Of a stretch of DNA of 64,000 bases, positions 4,853 through 13,001 are shown piece by piece. The stretch comes from Peribacillus frigoritolerans (GTDB taxonomy: Bacteria > Bacillota > Bacilli > Bacillales > DSM-1321): positions 2,317,712 through 2,381,711 of the forward strand of contig NZ_KV440950.1 of NCBI RefSeq assembly GCF_001636405.1, given 5' to 3'. The notes beneath the pieces were generated by a model. That model made no database searches, was not told where the DNA came from, and saw nothing but the letters and a program-made list of their open reading frames with translations. Numbering within the stretch: position 1 is the stretch's first letter; each line of letters opens with the position of its first letter. A program made the translations under genes and the position numbers.

Positions 4853-5905
4853 GTGGTAAAAGAAAAAGAAAGTATCGCAGTGATTGGAGCTGGGAGCTGG
4901 GGGACTGCTTTAGCGCTTGTAATCGCTGATAACCAGCATGAAGTGAGATTATGGGGACATAACCAGAAACAAATCGATGAAATCAATCAAAATCATACGA
5001 ATGAAAAATACTTGCCTGGGATTGAATTGCCTTTGGGGATTAAAGGTTATTCTTCCATTAAGGAAGCATTGGCCGGGATTGAAATAATAATCTTGGCTGT
5101 TCCGACAAAAGCCTATCGGGAAGTGCTTGGCCAGATTGAAGAGGCTCATGATAAACCGTTGACAATCGTTCATGTGAGTAAGGGAATTGAACCTGATTCC
5201 CTGCTTCGTATATCGGAAATGATTGAAGAAGTCTCTTCGTCAGAATGGCTTAAGGATATAGTGGTTCTTTCAGGACCGAGCCATGCGGAAGAAGTCAGTT
5301 TACGTCACCCGACAACAGTTGCCGTTTCTTCAAAGAATATGAAAGCTGCCGAAAGGGTTCAGGACATCTTTATCAATAATAATTTCCGTGTATATACGAA
5401 TCCGGACTTGATTGGTGTTGAAATCGGAGGGGCTTTAAAGAACATCATCGCTTTGGCTGCCGGCATCACGGATGGTTTAGGCTATGGGGATAATGCCAAG
5501 GCTGCATTAATGACTCGAGGGTTGGCTGAAATATCCCGTCTAGGGGTGGCCATGGGGGCTAACCCACTAACGTTTTCAGGTTTAGCTGGGATTGGCGACT
5601 TGATCGTCACTTGTACAAGCGTTCATTCCCGTAATTGGAGAGCTGGGAATATGCTTGGTAAAGGGCAAAAGCTTGAAGAAGTTTTGGAAAACATGGGGAT
5701 GGTCGTTGAAGGCGTCAGAACCACTAAAGCCGCCTATCAACTAGCCCAAAAGTACGAAGTGAATATGCCGATCACCGAAGCCTTGTACGATGTTTTATTC
5801 AATGGGGAAGAAGTGAAAAAGGCAGTTGACCTTTTGATGAATCGTTCAAAAACGAATGAGATGGAAGAACTTTTTAACATATTGGATAGCAGGCAGCAGG
5901 ATTAA
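4853..5905 (+). CDS. gpsA: Glycerol-3-phosphate dehydrogenase [NAD(P)+]
   Basis: 350 residues. It reduces dihydroxyacetone phosphate to sn-glycerol 3-phosphate, the first committed step of phospholipid synthesis. The N-terminus has the Rossmann dinucleotide motif GAGSWG; the lysine-containing segment [10 protein letters not shown] and the GLAGIGDL region are typical of the catalytic C-terminal domain. Start GTG 4853 was chosen because AAAGGTGGT lies 6 bases before it; an upstream frame extension overlaps der and lacks a binding site. Confidence 0.96.
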
Positions 5906-6040
5906 TCTCCAATCTGTTGATTTTCATAAAAGAATTTCATTAAATTAGGCATTTGATGATGCGCCTTGCCGTGTATCAGCATACAATGCAACGAAAGTAA
6001 ACTAGTAATTTGACCTCGGCACGGGGGATTTAGTCAAATG

Positions 6041-6068
6041 AGCAGAAGATATCTAAATATCTTCTGCT
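6041..6068 (+). terminator. Rho-independent terminator after gpsA
   Basis: A perfect 12-bp stem (6041-6052 with 6057-6068), a CTAA tetraloop and a run of T residues directly after. It separates gpsA from the putrescine module. Confidence 0.9.
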
Positions 6069-6095
6069 TTTTTTTATGGGCAAAAAATCTTCTAT

Positions 6096-6135
6096 TTATG
6101 AATAATTGAATAGATTATTCAGATTTGCATAAATC
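6096..6135 (+). promoter_or_regulatory. Putative upstream activator boxes of puuP
   Basis: GATTTGCATAAATC at 6122-6135 has 5-bp inverted arms and contains TTTGCATA (6124-6131), centred exactly 68 bp before the -12 GC of the sigma-54 promoter. The same octamer sits at the same distance before patA. A weaker TTATG element at 6096-6100 lies 28 bp further up; its patA counterpart lies 29 bp up. Binding by the nearby sigma-54 activator is inference. Confidence 0.6.
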
Positions 6136-6181
6136 ATTCTACATATTTCCTTGTTTTTTGTTAAAAATCGACCCTTTTTTT

Positions 6182-6196
6182 TGGTATGAAAATTGC
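6182..6196 (+). promoter_or_regulatory. Sigma-54 (-24/-12) promoter of puuP
   Basis: TGGTATGAAAATTGC fits the TGGCAC-N5-TTGC consensus, with exactly 10 bases between the invariant GG (6183-6184) and GC (6195-6196). It lies 86 bases upstream of the puuP start. No good -35/-10 pair for sigma-A competes here. Confidence 0.8.
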
Positions 6197-6281
6197 GAAG
6201 TGTAATATGACCAACAATTTATAAGGGAGGCCAGAAAAGTTTGTCTTAACTTTTCTCGCATAAAAGGAAGGGGAATGATAC

Positions 6282-7619
6282 ATGCAAACAGGTAATCTGA
6301 AAAGGTCATTAAACTTGTGGCATATCGTATTGCTCGGTGTTGGATATATGACGCCGATGGTTGTTTTTGATACATTCGGGATAGTTTCCGAAAAAACCGG
6401 GGGGCATGTGCCGACCGCTTATATCATTGCTCTTTTGGCAATGTTGTTTACAGCAGCCAGTTATGGAAAAATGGTTAAAATATATCCGCAGGCAGGTTCA
6501 TCCTATACGTACACACAAAAAACGATCAGTCCGCATTTAGGCTTCCTCGTCGGGTGGTCTTCGTTACTTGACTATTTATTTTTACCGATGGTGAACGGCA
6601 TTTTGACAAAAATATACTTAACTGCTCTTTTTCCGGAAGTATACCCGTGGATATGGGTGGTGGCATTTGTCCTTTTAATGACGGTCATTAACTTATTCAA
6701 TGTTAATTTTGCGGCCAACTTTAATAGCTTCCTTGTTTTTTTTCAAATGTTGGTCATCGTCATTTTTGGGGCACTTGTCGTTAAAGGAGTCATGGGTGGA
6801 GAAGGGACTGGAGAGGTCTTGTCGGTTCAGCCATTCATCGGGCCCCATATGGAGATCTCGACGCTCATAACTGGTGCTACAATCCTTTGTTTTTCTTTTT
6901 TGGGGTTTGACGCAGTCACTACTTTATCGGAAGAAACGCCGAATCCATCCAAAACGGTTCCCCGGGCCATCTTTTTGACTGCCCTGATCGGAGGAGTTTT
7001 ATTCGTGACGGCATCATTCTTTACACAGTTATTTTTCCCGGATGTTTCCCGTTTTAGCGATCCTGAAGCAGCTTCTCCGGAAATTGCCCTTTTCGTGGGC
7101 GGGAAGTTATTTCAGGCATTCTTTCTTGCAGGAACCTTATGCGGTACCCTTGCCTCCGGTCTTGCATCTCACGCTAGTGTTTCTAGGTTGCTATATGTCA
7201 TGGGGCGTGACCAAATGATTCCGAAAAAACTATTTGGGTTTATCCACCCCAAATACAACACGCCATTTTTTAATGTCATCTTTGTCGGGTCGATATCACT
7301 GGTTGCCTTATTCCTTGATTTGGTTACGGCCACTTCCCTCATAAACTTTGGGGCATTAATCGCTTTTACCTTCGTGAATATTTGTGTAATCGTCCATTCG
7401 ATAAGAAACAAAAGCTTCAGAACGATTAAAGGATTTCTTTCAACTATTCTGTCCCCGGTTTTAGGCGCGGCTTCGGTCTTCATCCTTTGGCTTAATCTCG
7501 AGATGAGTTCCTTGATTTTAGGAATAGTCTGGGCGGTAATTGGGATTGGTTATCTTCTATATCGGACAAAATGGTTTACGGAATCCCCTCCGCTATTCCA
7601 ATTTGAAAAAGCACAGTGA
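6282..7619 (+). CDS. puuP: Putrescine importer, PuuP-type APC permease
   Basis: 445 residues with about 12 membrane helices. It resembles E. coli PuuP along its whole length, including LSLW-like LNLWHIV near the start, [14 protein letters not shown] at about 25, [12 protein letters not shown] at about 91, [17 protein letters not shown] at about 205, the LFFPDVSRF loop and [19 protein letters not shown] at about 295. PuuP is a proton-driven putrescine importer in the cytoplasmic membrane; other amine or amino-acid substrates are possible, but the patA partner downstream supports putrescine. AAGGAAGGGG precedes the ATG. It is read from a sigma-54 promoter, so its expression should need the activator at 8521. 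Confidence 0.85.
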
Positions 7620-7658
7620 ATGTATTCTACTGTTTCATTACACGAGGGAGGGTGTTAT

Positions 7659-8118
7659 ATGCTGATGAGAAATGAAGAGGTCATTAATGCTATTGCTTGT
7701 TGTCTATTCCGTTCATGGCGTTAGCAACATGTATCCAGCGCTTAGGGCAAGAATATGTCGCTTAGTATGGTGCCCGGGAGCTTTCATGGTAATGCTTTTC
7801 CCGGCGTACGGTTATGTAATGTTGGCAAAGTCATTCCTTCGGCAGGTTCGGTGTAGGTTTATATGCAAAAGTCCATTCATACATATGCCTGTTTTTGCAG
7901 GTTAGTCGACACTGATGGATTAATTATTCATTTCAATTATATTGCTTTTAATATATTTCCTTTTGTACTGACCTTTCCATAAGCATTGAATTTACTGATT
8001 ATTGTGACGGTTTCCGTATTATGGTTGGGAAAATGGGTGCGAATGCAATGCTGTACTAATGTTCGTCGCCTTGCTTTTGATGGTATTTATTTATCTGGGA
8101 AATTATGTAGGGGGATGA
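7659..8118 (+). pseudogene. Decayed APC-family permease remnant (PuuP-like N-terminal part)
   Basis: A good binding site (GAGGGAGGG) and an ATG at 7659 are followed by frames broken several times. Pieces in different frames resemble a PuuP-like permease in the right order: LKRSLMLLLVV near 7670, MVMLFPAYGYVMLAK near 7785, then PSAGSV, a stop, and VYMQKSI near 7835-7880, matching the PxAGSxYTYxQKxI block of the family. A hydrophobic stretch resembling the next helices follows to 8118. Only about the first third of a permease can be traced, with frameshifts and in-frame stops, so I call it a remnant. Assignment rests on my reading by eye. Confidence 0.55.
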
Positions 8119-8520
8119 ATAAGGAATAGTGACGGGGGCAGAAGCATTGGAAGCATATATTTTACCCTTGGTTCCTTATAATGTTGCAAACAGGTATGAA
8201 GCCGTAATGACGGTATGGAGGGAGCTGTCCTATCTGTATAAAAAGCCCTAGCGAGGGACGCCATCCATGAATCATAACAAACAGGAATAAGCAAAATTCA
8301 AACATGATTGGAATGTATAAGATAAGGTGGACGGTCCTTTATAAAATAAGTCTAAGCTGCATATCAGGTTTTTAGGTCAAAAGGGTCCGTTTAAGGACCC
8401 TTTTGTCGTGGGATGAGTAAAGGTAAATGCTGGATATGAGTAATGGTGCCTCTTATTTTTTATCTTGCAATTCGGAATTGTGATAAAATATAGGTTAGGT
8501 TACAAAAGGAGAGTGAAACT
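8119..8520. other. Intergenic region after permease remnant
   Basis: No gene was recognised. The stretch probably includes further eroded remnant sequence and the promoter of the activator gene. It contains a terminator-like hairpin at 8379-8404. An AAAAGGAGAG binding site lies at its right end. Confidence 0.45.
8379..8404 (+). terminator. Terminator-like hairpin before the activator gene
   Basis: A 10-bp perfect stem (8379-8388 with 8395-8404), a 6-base loop and a TTTT-G tail. It probably ends transcripts from puuP and the remnant and isolates the activator gene. Confidence 0.75.
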
Positions 8521-10626
8521 GTGTTATCTATTCCGGATGATAAAATTAGACCATTCATAACTATAACAATTGATCAGCCTACATTTTCAGACCAAAATAT
8601 TCATGAGATACAGGAACCTTTCTTCTTTCTTATGAAGGAAAATCAAGTGTTTGCGTATATCCGCATGGATGACCTCCCGTTAAATGAAAAAATAACGACA
8701 GTCGATCAGCTTTTACAGTATGCTTTTTCGATTGATAATGTCTGTAAATTGCACCCTAACATTTCCTTGCCGCATTTGTTTCAAATTATCGGTGAGCCTA
8801 TCGTACTGATAAAAACGGATGATGGCCTGCTAACCGGTTATGTAAAAAGGGAAGATGTATTAGCTGAATTATTCAAGCAGGACAGCAAACAAAATTTAGA
8901 CCTGCTAAATGTTATATTAACCTCCATTCCTATGGGGATATTTGTGGCTGATAAAGAAAAGAATATCGTGAACTTCAATGAATCAGGCTTGAAGATGATA
9001 AAAAAACCTTCTGAACAAGTCCTTAATGAACCTGCTGCGAACATCTTCAATAAGCAGCATATACATAGCGTGTTTTCCAGCGGGAGCAGTATTCTGAATC
9101 AGTTGGAGATTACTGATGTCATGAGTGTGCTTGTCGACTATAGCCCGATTCTGAACCATGAAAAAGAAGTCGAGGGCCTGATCATCATCGTTCAGGATTT
9201 ACCGATGGTTGAGGAAATGGCCATGGAAATAGAATTGATAAAAAGCTCGAATAAAGATTTGAATGCCATTTTAGCGAATATCTATGATGAAATACTTGTA
9301 GTCAATCAAAAAGGAGAGCTGCTGCGCTATAGTGACAGCATCATCTCGGGATTCTGGGGGAAGGACTTAAAAGATTATATCGGGAAGAATCTCTTGCAAT
9401 TAGAAGATGAAGGGATTTTTAATCCTTCGGTAACCCGGTTAGTCCTTGAACAAAAAAAGAAAGTATCGATTGTCCAAGATACGAAAATGAATAAGAAAGT
9501 CCTTTCCGTCGGCACCCCTGTGTTCAATGAAAAAGGGGAAATAGATCGAATAGTCATTGCATCAAGGGATATAACGGAAACGACACAATTGAAATCGGAA
9601 TTAAATGAAATGAGGAAAGAACTGGACTCTTTCAAAAAACAGGATCAATTTTATAAAGAGTTGGTTTTTGCAAGTCCTAAAATGGAGCAGATAATCAGCC
9701 AAGTCAAGAAAATCGCCCATTTTTCATCTACTGTATTAATCAATGGGGAGTCGGGAGTAGGTAAAGAAGTGATAGCTGAAGCCATTCATAAAATGGGCAG
9801 GCGATCTAAACAGCCTTTCCTGAAGATAAATTGTGGGGCGATTCCGGAAAACCTTCTCGAAAGTGAATTGTTTGGTTATACGAAGGGTTCCTTTACAGGA
9901 GCGGATAAAAATGGGAAGGTAGGATACTTTCAGCAGGCTAATAAAGGTGTTTTATTCCTGGATGAAGTTGGTGACATGCCCATACATCTGCAAGTCAAGC
10001 TGCTGCGGGTACTCCAGGAACAGGAAGTGATTCCGATTGGCAGCACTACACCCATTTCCATTGATGTTCAAATTGTTGCGGCCACGAATAAGAGTCTGGA
10101 AAAAATGGTCGAGATGGGCACGTTCCGGGAAGATTTATTCTATCGGTTGAACGTCATACCCATACATGTGCCCCCATTAAGGGAAAGGCCGGAGGATATA
10201 CCGCCGCTAGCCTTTCATTTCCTGCAAAAACTGAATGAAAGGTATCAGCGGAATTATCACTTTTCCCCCGATGCATTAAATATACTGGAAGTCTATACTT
10301 GGCCGGGAAACATTCGTGAGTTGCAGAACATGATTGAAAGATTGGTTGTTTCTGCAGATGAAGAGATGATCGATGCTGACTTCATTCAAAGGTTCATACC
10401 TGTGGGCAGTGACTTTAAACAAACGAAACCCATCATTACGAGAATCCTTCCGCTGCAGGAAGCGCAGGATCATGTGGAAGAACAATTGATCATGCTTGCC
10501 ATGAAACAGTATAAAACCACGACCAAAGCGGCTAAAGCGCTTGGGATAAGTCAATCGTCAGTGAGCAGGAAGTATCAAAAAGTGTTAGCTGAACAAAGTA
10601 AGAAAATCGAAAATGATGCATTTTGA
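8521..10626 (+). CDS. Sigma-54-dependent transcriptional activator with CBS-like and two PAS domains
   Basis: 701 residues from GTG 8521, preceded by AAAAGGAGAG. The order is a CBS-like N-terminal region (about 40-120), two PAS domains (about 124-230 and 245-355), a central AAA+ domain and a TyrR/Fis-type helix-turn-helix near the end (KAAKALGISQSSVSRKYQK). The AAA+ part has Walker A GESGVGKE (409-416), the sigma-54 contact loop as GSFTGA (456-461; the usual form is GAFTGA), and Walker B LFLDEVGDM. Such proteins are enhancer-binding ATPases that remodel sigma-54 polymerase. It lies between two sigma-54 promoters (puuP, patA), its likely targets. The signal sensed is unknown; putrescine or a metabolite is inferred. 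A strong terminator follows. Confidence 0.9.
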   Translation: MLSIPDDKIRPFITITIDQPTFSDQNIHEIQEPFFFLMKENQVFAYIRMDDLPLNEKITTVDQLLQYAFSIDNVCKLHPNISLPHLFQIIGEPIVLIKTDDGLLTGYVKREDVLAELFKQDSKQNLDLLNVILTSIPMGIFVADKEKNIVNFNESGLKMIKKPSEQVLNEPAANIFNKQHIHSVFSSGSSILNQLEITDVMSVLVDYSPILNHEKEVEGLIIIVQDLPMVEEMAMEIELIKSSNKDLNAILANIYDEILVVNQKGELLRYSDSIISGFWGKDLKDYIGKNLLQLEDEGIFNPSVTRLVLEQKKKVSIVQDTKMNKKVLSVGTPVFNEKGEIDRIVIASRDITETTQLKSELNEMRKELDSFKKQDQFYKELVFASPKMEQIISQVKKIAHFSSTVLINGESGVGKEVIAEAIHKMGRRSKQPFLKINCGAIPENLLESELFGYTKGSFTGADKNGKVGYFQQANKGVLFLDEVGDMPIHLQVKLLRVLQEQEVIPIGSTTPISIDVQIVAATNKSLEKMVEMGTFREDLFYRLNVIPIHVPPLRERPEDIPPLAFHFLQKLNERYQRNYHFSPDALNILEVYTWPGNIRELQNMIERLVVSADEEMIDADFIQRFIPVGSDFKQTKPIITRILPLQEAQDHVEEQLIMLAMKQYKTTTKAAKALGISQSSVSRKYQKVLAEQSKKIENDAF

Positions 10627-10628
10627 TT

Positions 10629-10672
10629 AAAAGCCGTTGCCGAGTGATGAAAATCACTTGTCAACGGCTTTT
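10629..10672 (+). terminator. Rho-independent terminator after the activator gene
   Basis: An 11-bp stem (10629-10639 with 10662-10672) around an inner GTGAT/ATCAC hairpin, followed by a T-rich tail. Confidence 0.88.
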
Positions 10673-10721
10673 ATTTTTATGAAGGCATTTTCGAAGCTTT
10701 TCAATGATTTCCCAAACTCGA

Positions 10722-10758
10722 TTATGCAAAGTGAAATAACGATATGCATATTTGCATA
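10722..10758 (+). promoter_or_regulatory. Putative upstream activator boxes of patA
   Basis: TTATGCAAAG at 10722-10731 and TTTGCATA at 10751-10758, the latter preceded by the palindrome ATATGCATAT. The TTTGCATA centre is exactly 68 bp from the -12 GC of the patA sigma-54 promoter, the same as upstream of puuP. Role as the enhancer for the adjacent activator is inference. Confidence 0.6.
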
Positions 10759-10808
10759 GTTTTAGAGTGATTTTTTTAAAAAAATGCGTTTTTATTGGTT
10801 AATTAACT

Positions 10809-10823
10809 TGGCATGGTTCTTGC
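10809..10823 (+). promoter_or_regulatory. Sigma-54 (-24/-12) promoter of patA
   Basis: TGGCATGGTTCTTGC is close to the consensus, with GG (10810-10811) and GC (10822-10823) separated by 10 bases. It lies 107 bases upstream of the patA start, leaving an A-rich leader. Confidence 0.85.
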
Positions 10824-10873
10824 TTGATTAGTAAGTATAAGAAAAAAGGGAGGTAAGCATCAAAGTTTCATAA

Positions 10874-12304
<1,431 letters not shown>

Positions 12305-12351
12305 TTAAAAAAAGCAGAAAAACAGCCTTTGGGCTGATTCAGACTGTAGAT

Positions 12352-12389
12352 AAAAAGGTTTCGGAATGGCATCATTCCGAAACCTTTTT
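12352..12389 (+). terminator. Rho-independent terminator after patA
   Basis: A 17-bp perfect stem (12352-12368 with 12373-12389) with loop GCAT. The A and T runs on both sides make it bidirectional. Confidence 0.88.
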
Positions 12390-13001
12390 GAATTTGTGGC
12401 AGTTTTAGATAATGATGAAATCTCCAAGGTCATTATTTCGACCATTTCTCCCCTTCGTCAAGTCCAGGTGGCCATCTTCTTTACATGAATGGCAACCTAC
12501 ATTTTACTAATCTGCAAGAGGTGGTCTAAGTAAACATTTCAAGCTGATCAAAGGTATCCTCACCACCTCGAGTATTCATCCTTAAATAAGGAGCTTATCT
12601 TCCTGTTAACACAAGGTTGACTGGAACGGAACATACGAGACTCCTGCTGGAAAGCGGGGCCAAGAGAGACCCCACAGGCGCTAATAGAGCCTAGGGCGGA
12701 CCTTCCGGGTAAAGCGAGTACCCTACGTTCCAATCAACGGTCAAATTTTAAACACCTTAAAAAACTGTCGACAAACTCAATTATTATCGAGTTTGTTTAT
12801 AAACTGAAACAGTCATTGCGCTGTTTTTTTGTTGCTTGGAGGAGGGAATAATTAGATATTTCTCGTTATATAACTGGATCTCAGAATTTTTTTTCACGAG
12901 AACGAGTAATGAAAACGGGAATTACACAGATTGGACAATTTAATTCCTTTAACGTAATTTGGTATGTTATAATAATTTCTGGAAAAAGGAGTGATGAAGA
13001 T
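12390..13001. other. Gene-free accessory interval between patA and yphE
   Basis: No coding region was recognised. It contains a separated 8-bp inverted repeat GAGGTGGT/ACCACCTC (12518-12525, 12562-12569), the 123-bp repeat described separately, a hairpin ACAAACTC/GAGTTTGT (12771-12778, 12789-12796) and a small hairpin followed by T residues near 12812-12830. It marks the junction between the putrescine module and the conserved backbone. Confidence 0.5.
12616..12738. repeat. 123-bp intergenic repeat with 13-bp terminal inverted repeats
   Basis: The ends are GTTGACTGGAACG (12616-12628) and CGTTCCAATCAAC (12726-12738), complementary except for one G-T pair. The GC-rich interior contains GAGACTCCTGCTGG and GAGACCCCACAGG, strings I associate with a repeat family dispersed in Bacillaceae intergenic regions; this copy looks diverged. 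Family membership comes from memory and needs a sequence search. No coding capacity. Confidence 0.65.

Follow-up and report, generated by a model that had tools for sequence, protein, structure and literature searches.

A predicted putrescine and agmatine catabolism regulon in Peribacillus under a dedicated one-component sigma-54 activator

The window analysed here, a 64,000-nucleotide stretch of the 5.46-Mb genome of Peribacillus frigoritolerans, contains a locus that very probably forms the core of a regulon for putrescine/agmatine catabolism, controlled by a one-component sigma-54 activator of its own. Two -24/-12 promoters, one before a predicted putrescine permease gene (puuP) and one before a predicted putrescine aminotransferase gene (patA), each lie below a tandem pair of 18-bp palindromes. 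The palindromes are conserved among relatives, are phased with the DNA helix and precede a recurring set of target genes, and the activator and PatA co-occur across genomes. Uptake and breakdown of putrescine are probably switched on through these paired 18-base signs, read by the activator; because many relatives carry these signs too, ahead of genes of similar kinds, a real gene switch of a well-known type is likely.

Results

Two sigma-54 promoters with tandem palindromes

The closest named locus is that of Peribacillus simplex (L001), with 98% identity in PatA and 99% in the activator. The features of the window locus are listed below; operator distances are from the palindrome centre to the GC of the -12 element, and ranks are those given by a weight matrix described in the next section.

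6040..6069, + strand: terminator-like hairpin preceding the puuP unit
6096..6113: predicted distal palindromic operator of puuP, TTATGAATAATTGAATAG; 90.5 bp; matrix rank 3
6115..6132: predicted proximal palindromic operator of puuP, TTATTCAGATTTGCATAA, which includes TTTGCATA; 71.5 bp; matrix rank 1
6181..6196, + strand: puuP -24/-12 promoter, TTGGTATGAAAATTGC, GG-N10-GC
6233..6256, + strand: minor hairpin in the puuP leader, 8 pairs, weak covariation
6282..7619, + strand: puuP, predicted APC-family putrescine permease, 445 aa; PF00324, likeness to E. coli PuuP
7640..8290 (approximate), + strand: second PuuP-like permease, probably a decayed remnant; weak tblastn fragment, E 0.005
8521..10626, + strand: sigma-54 activator (EBP), 701 aa, GTG start; CBS-like pair, two PAS, AAA+, HTH
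10722..10739: predicted distal palindromic operator of patA, TTATGCAAAGTGAAATAA, weaker; 91.5 bp; matrix rank 5
10742..10759: predicted proximal palindromic operator of patA, ATATGCATATTTGCATAG; 71.5 bp; matrix rank 2
10808..10823, + strand: patA -24/-12 promoter, TTGGCATGGTTCTTGC, GG-N10-GC
10931..12304, + strand: patA, predicted putrescine aminotransferase, 457 aa; TIGR03372, NF008570

A first-pass annotation of this DNA had described exact GG-N10-GC spacing in both promoters, a TTTGCATA box centred 68 bp upstream of the -12 GC in each, and a second, TTATG-type element farther upstream. All of these measurements were reproduced: the promoters lie at 6181-6196 and 10808-10823, copies of TTTGCATA lie upstream of them at 6124-6131 and 10751-10758, the distance between the centres of box and -12 GC being exactly 68 bp in each case, and TTATG begins at 6096 and at 10722, 28 and 29 bp before the respective box. 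The positions stand, but the reading of them as two kinds of element does not, as they are the arms of two adjacent palindromes, TTTGCATA being the right arm of the inner one and TTATG the left arm of the outer one. We therefore replaced TTTGCATA as the operator by an 18-bp palindrome with the consensus TTATGCA-N4-TGCATAA, present twice in tandem at each window promoter with a separation of 19 bp at puuP and 20 bp at patA.

Taken singly, these elements are weak. The window holds nine copies of TTTGCATA against 5.18 expected, a count reached in 3 of 100 shuffles, and four matches to TTGGYATN5TTGC with at most one mismatch against 3.83 expected, the two exact ones being the puuP and patA promoters. 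The near-chance frequency of TTTGCATA taken alone is what would be seen if the likeness of the two promoters were an accident, or the trace of a functionless duplicated promoter; however, the site, its spacing and its dyad are found again in other genera and ahead of other genes, and this conservation largely rules out such an origin, to which we give a vanishingly small probability. The combination of elements, read as 18-bp palindromes, is beyond chance. A scan for sigma-70 promoters returned 19 matches against 18.2 expected by chance and did not pick out a promoter for the activator itself.

The palindrome is associated with promoter-like elements

Site-promoter pairs, defined by at least 12 of 14 palindrome matches, were collected from 29 loci not named Peribacillus, and 55 such pairs were found at 51 of their 94 promoter-like elements. 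The weight matrix was trained on these 55 pairs, which came from 23 of the 29 loci, and ranked the window sites at 6096, 6115, 10722 and 10742 third, first, fifth and second among all 18-mers of the window. The consensus behind the training sites was derived from the window, so that controls matter here. Against the 55 pairs of the true palindrome, the average was 0.09 pairs for 300 scrambled palindromes and 0.15 for 200 rounds of shuffling the upstream regions, with a maximum of 2 in both cases, and shifted windows gave 0 of 93. When each copy was counted once, 50 of the 61 copies in the 29 loci (23 of them positive) lay within 150 bp above one of the 94 promoter-like elements, in stretches that make up 11,956 of 553,159 positions (2.2%); the remaining 11 sit away from any -24/-12 element. 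In six loci no copy lay near a promoter-like element, and four of these (L007, L020, L023 and L024) also lack an activator match above 150 bits.

Conservation in relatives

Comparison of the upstream regions of related genomes showed that the boxes and their spacing are kept; their loss in orthologous loci, which the first-pass annotation had named as evidence against its proposal, is not what we observed. All 20 puuP promoter regions compared within the genus retain the identical 16-letter -24/-12 element and both palindromes, the distal one at 89.5-92.5 bp and the proximal one at 70.5-73.5 bp in every case. Behind the activator gene, too, both the -24/-12 element and a site are present at all 22 of 22 loci, counting the present genome, and the gene that follows is patA in 21 of these and a patD-like gene in one (L101). 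The distal patA site is weak (score 10.9) and falls below the listing limit of 5 in four of the 22 loci (L097-L100). Orthologous promoters such as these are not independent of each other. Outside the training set, motif plus promoter was found at 22 of 26 later activator loci, drawn from an order-wide search and scored within their available flanks only, or at 21 of 24 once two repeats of earlier loci are removed; in the available flanks of the other four (L213, L215, L223 and L233) the combination was absent.

Operator distance follows the helical repeat

Across 74 less-redundant promoters, from which relatedness was removed only in part, operator-promoter distances cluster near 62, 72.5, 82, 92 and 104-106 bp. 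Their periodicity is 10.2-10.4 bp (R 0.52), a strength matched by none of 5000 uniform random draws, and thus operator distance follows the helical repeat. For 63 of the 74 promoters the distance from the best site to the GC falls within 61.5-115.5 bp. Of 38 pairs of adjacent operators, 25 have a separation of 19 bp and eight one of 20 bp.

This geometry bears on whether the motif might instead serve a repressor or global regulator, as an operator overlapping the sigma-54 promoters, with the activator working from elsewhere. A/T-rich palindromes are common as repressor operators, and several copies of the motif stand without a -24/-12 element; helical phasing at mostly 60-115 bp, however, fits an activator that touches the polymerase, and we consider a repressor highly improbable. 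The distances of the regulon are short, since most sites of clostridial sigma-54 activators are placed at 100-250 bp in the account of PMC6615313. The first-pass annotation had regarded such closeness as unusual in itself, a view that our results do not support: 61.5-115.5 bp is the norm within the regulon, and binding near the sigma-54 site is also reported for GabR of B. thuringiensis (PMC4279683).

Predicted domain architecture of the activator and predicted roles of PuuP and PatA

Family matches and the alignment of orthologues bear out the earlier statement that the gene between puuP and patA encodes a PAS-containing sigma-54 activator. Its AAA+ domain at residues 382-549 matches PF00158 (E 3.5e-71), as do all 20 aligned orthologues, and its loop reads GSFTGA in the window protein and GAFTGA in several orthologues, the former being named as a working variant of the latter in PMC6615313. 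The Pfam matches also include a lid, a PAS domain at 129-227 and, at residues 645-686, a C-terminal TyrR-type HTH (PF18024 HTH_50, E 9.4e-8). A second PAS stretch was matched at a laxer limit in the window protein and its orthologues, and it fits the structural model.

The N-terminus, at about residues 1-120, appears to form a CBS-like pair. No PF00571 (CBS) match was listed for the window activator at E 0.1, and the family was matched by sequence in 5 of the 20 aligned orthologues (best 8.6e-7). Residues 1-126 modelled alone gave a pLDDT of 86.1 and a pTM of 0.77, and among the 50 PDB matches listed for this model the top ones were CBS-domain pairs, some of them bound to AMP or c-di-AMP; the listed matches had E values of 9e-5 to 7e-4, TM scores of 0.47-0.66 by query and 9-20% identity. 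They include IMPDH, GMP reductase, ClC and MgtE, which we take to be CBS-containing. The full-length model reached a pTM of only 0.37, and therefore only its domains were used; on this modelling the architecture would be CBS pair-PAS-PAS-AAA+-HTH.

Among the 25 of 34 NCBIfam families listed for the activator, it passes no cut-off. We rejected assignment as the PrdR equivalog (NF041552, 420.8 bits against a cut-off of 795) and as the TyrR equivalog (NF008085, 267 bits against 576). The genome itself contains two matches to sigma-54 (PF04552) over the cut-off.

The puuP product matches PF00324 but stays below every NCBIfam cut-off. In agreement with its earlier naming, it shares 61% identity with E. 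coli PuuP across 433 aa, and this full-length similarity points to a putrescine permease. PatA can be predicted with both curated models to be a putrescine aminotransferase, as had been proposed, as it exceeds the two cut-offs (TIGR03372, 662 bits against 658.65; NF008570, 772.8 bits against 612), and putrescine aminotransferases account for all five matches among solved sequences with E up to 1e-90. The TIGR03372 cut-off is narrowly missed by 12 of the 22 genomes of the genus with a PatA match; of the 14 control genomes in that family search, E. coli alone was named. PatA of B. megaterium is cited as superficially characterised (PMC8274714).

The activator and PatA co-occur

Within the genus, 22 of 36 genomes encode PatA and the same 22 encode the activator, while 14 have neither (Fisher 2.6e-10, relatedness not corrected); the activator orthologues are at least 67% identical, and one copy (G007) is in pieces. 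In a sample of 299 genomes of the order, searched at E 1e-155 for the activator and E 1e-150 for PatA, both were present in 28, the activator only in 3, PatA only in 6 and neither in 262. Thus 6 of 34 PatA genomes lack the activator, although it may have been missed in some of these because three candidates were scored per genome, and PatA is missing from 3 of 31 activator genomes. In these three (L232, L236 and L238) the motif precedes a different class-III aminotransferase, whose best family is NF005682, below its cut-off, in the two genomes scanned. This suggests that the enzyme is exchangeable while the switch stays.

We also considered whether the palindromes are read by another sigma-54 activator of the same genome, of RocR or GabR type, with the neighbouring gene controlling something else. 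The genome offers candidates, with 21 matches to the activator of which 20 are other proteins, and it carries a site of similar style, TTTTGCA-N6-TGCAAAA, at 73.5 bp before a rocA-like gene. That site, which is presumably the RocR site, nonetheless has a different half-site and spacer, and the motif is tied to the orthologue: 22 of the 26 later activator loci carry it, whereas at 52 patA loci without an activator orthologue the palindrome was found at 0 of 79 promoter-like elements, with two copies in 934 kb. Five of the 52 (L037, L044, L045, L049 and L074) hold other activators; many of the 52 come from distant bacteria, so that this control is only partly matched. On this evidence a different reader of the palindromes is very unlikely.

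The window sites do not match the presumed RocR-type operator of that rocA-like promoter: they fit TTATGCA-N4-TGCATAA and not TTTTGCA-N6-TGCAAAA.

Regulon targets lie at several places in the genome

The targets were defined from 64 promoters that carry the motif, located in the window, L123, L154 and L002-L033, L154 being admitted below the 13-bit limit. The first gene was patD-like at 18 of these promoters, puuP-like at 14, a glutamate dehydrogenase (GDH) at 13, patA at four and agmatinase at four. Rarer first genes were a second PuuP-like permease (two), a gabD-like gene (two), aguA (agmatine deiminase), an NhaC-type antiporter and the activator (one each), and others (four). These names are best BLASTP matches to references drawn partly from the same loci, and the GDH match of L026 is weak (44% over 130 aa). 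The references for PatA, GabT, SSADH, agmatine deiminase and NhaC pass an NCBIfam cut-off; those for PatD, agmatinase, GDH and carbamoylputrescine amidase do not, and the names PatD, agmatinase and GDH are thus putative, given from context and from NCBIfam matches below cut-off. The PatD-like protein L016, a relative of L210 of the present genome, scores 385 against 909 for TIGR03374 and 495 against 615 for NF010000, and its best family, TIGR01804 (betaine-aldehyde), is also below cut-off at 626 against 669.

Outside the window, the present genome has four more fitting genes at three places. A second permease (L123), 52% identical to E. coli PuuP, has a site of 21.0 bits, and a PatD-like dehydrogenase (L210) has one of 21.8 bits at 91.5 bp with the promoter CTGGCATGAATCTTGC; the other close PatD homologue (L209, 71% identical) has no site upstream. 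A putative agmatinase (L154) has a weaker site of 11.6 bits at 74.5 bp, where about 0.17 would be expected in 70 shuffled promoters, and a divergent third PuuP-like permease (L261) shares this site at 145.5 bp. Among the 70 occurrences of TTGGYAN6TTGC in the genome, the upstream score exceeds 17 for puuP, L123 and patA only, with agmatinase fourth; a scan with this pattern alone was set aside, as it missed the PatD-like gene, which was recovered by protein search. A tighter palindrome pattern occurs at 22 places, four of which are the window sites and the PatD-like site; 10 of the other 18 scored above 8 bits, and none of the 10 has a -24/-12 element in range. Eight palindromes of the genome, at 13.1-17.2 bits, stand without such an element in range. 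Import, deamination and control had been pictured as one compact unit; because motif-bearing promoters also stand elsewhere, before the PatD-like gene, the second permease and, with the weaker site, agmatinase and the third permease, the regulon is dispersed.

Discussion

A proposed mechanism

These observations are consistent with a model in which activator dimers bind each TTATGCA-N4-TGCATAA palindrome through the C-terminal TyrR-type HTH. With the paired palindromes 19-20 bp apart, about two helical turns, two dimers would sit on one face of the DNA and may help to seed the AAA+ oligomer. An inducer from the putrescine/agmatine/GABA route would be sensed by the PAS domains, and perhaps also by the CBS-like domains, after which the induced oligomer would touch the sigma-54 form of RNA polymerase at the -24/-12 promoter through its GSFTGA loop and open the promoter through ATP hydrolysis. 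The short, helically phased spacing may hold activator and polymerase on a fixed face. The expected outcome would be import by PuuP, transamination by PatA and oxidation of the aldehyde by a PatD-like enzyme to GABA, with agmatinase supplying putrescine to this route; in relatives, the regulon would add a glutamate dehydrogenase and semialdehyde dehydrogenases.

It is conceivable, but rather doubtful, that an adenine nucleotide or cyclic-di-AMP is a ligand of the CBS-like pair, which would then gate polyamine breakdown by energy or osmotic state as well as by substrate, through PAS. If true, this would directly link second-messenger or energy sensing to polyamine catabolism.

Relation to known systems

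RocR of Bacillus subtilis is a one-component PAS sigma-54 activator of arginine catabolism with a palindromic site close above a -24/-12 promoter. The system predicted here shares this plan, an activator of that type serving amino-acid catabolism from a nearby palindrome, but its sites follow TTATGCA-N4-TGCATAA and differ from the rocA-like site of the same genome, TTTTGCA-N6-TGCAAAA. Dedicated one-component sigma-54 activators of catabolic genes, among them GabR, KamR and RocR, are known, and the eight activators reported for B. thuringiensis HD73 take their names from other pathways, in a paper whose main text does not contain the word putrescine (PMC4428206). GabR of that strain, a SigL-dependent activator of a GABA-shunt gene induced by compounds of the pathway, resembles the present activator in its PAS-AAA+-HTH plan and in binding close to the sigma-54 site, but it recognizes 21-bp repeats and its target, gabT, serves a later step of the same catabolic route (PMC4279683).

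The first-pass annotation knew of no described Bacillaceae putrescine system wired in this way; its suggestion of novelty is not borne out in that form, as related arrangements are in print. GasR and AguQ of Clostridium are sigma-54 activators predicted to act on puuXP and on agmatine genes, and among clostridial activators there are examples with CBS and PAS domains and with several upstream sites (PMC6615313). The GasR-puuXP prediction is close to the Bacillales regulon; GasR and AguQ differ from it in being predictions and in having no patA or patD target in the parts of the table covered, a comparison made by description only (PMC6615313). In E. coli, patA encodes the same enzyme and is also under sigma-54-dependent control, but through the general nitrogen regulator NtrC rather than a dedicated pathway activator (PMC9397018). 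Enterobacterial patA loci in our control set have the motif at no promoter-like element. In the literature outside subscription papers and supplements, we found no description of a Bacillales putrescine activator, regulon or motif. Comparison with relatives well supports the view that the Bacillales regulon is a further dedicated one-component sigma-54 activator system.

For polyamine catabolism in soil Bacillales, this analysis offers a concrete, testable rule consisting of an activator, an operator, a spacing and a list of targets, by which regulator and readable operator may be predicted in unannotated genomes. Mechanistic studies may also find in the regulon a naturally occurring collection of short-range sigma-54 enhancers in helical phase.

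Minor features of the locus

An Rfam scan of 5900-12900 returned no family at the gathering score. In the hairpin of the puuP leader, three of the eight pairs show changes on both sides in at least one of 20 sequences. Terminator-like hairpins similar by eye to that at 6040..6069 were noticed near 8380-8404, 10630-10671 and 12353-12389, though absent from the list made by the tool. The remnant of a permease downstream of puuP has a clearer counterpart at the same position in another genome (G034, locus L098).

Conservation of the activator motif and of sigma-54 genes

In three genomes that encode the activator and lack a PatA match (loci L232, L236 and L238), the activator motif, TTATGCA-N4-TGCATAA, precedes a different class-III aminotransferase. 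Apparently, the enzyme has been exchanged at these loci and the switch conserved. The activator itself is divided into three adjoining or overlapping pieces in a single genome (G007, locus L102), reflecting either decay or an assembly error.

Two sigma-54 genes were found in the genome of the strain under study, at G000:C1:581737 (L240) and 5112127 (L241). Two full matches to PF04552, the family used to find these genes, were present per genome in 19 of the 36 genus genomes, and all 19 encode PatA. In the strain's own genome, the second sigma-54 gene is located close to the PatD-like gene and also to an aminotransferase gene (L186) that is preceded by a -24/-12 promoter.

A further gene of this genome, which we take to be RocA-like (L144, 1-460; from G000:C1:1595010 on), has two -24/-12 promoters separated by 160 bp. 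A perfect palindrome, TTTTGCA-N6-TGCAAAA, lies 73.5 bp upstream of the first of them.

Features flanking puuP

The puuP leader contains a hairpin (window positions 6233-6256), with an early GGGAGG on one side of it and the ribosome-binding site on the other. This hairpin is retained in most of 20 genus sequences, among which three of its eight pairs exhibit changes on both sides. Between puuP and the activator gene, a weak match at 7640-8290 is probably the remnant of a second PuuP-like permease; the equivalent position in G034 (L098) holds a longer, likewise broken, remnant.
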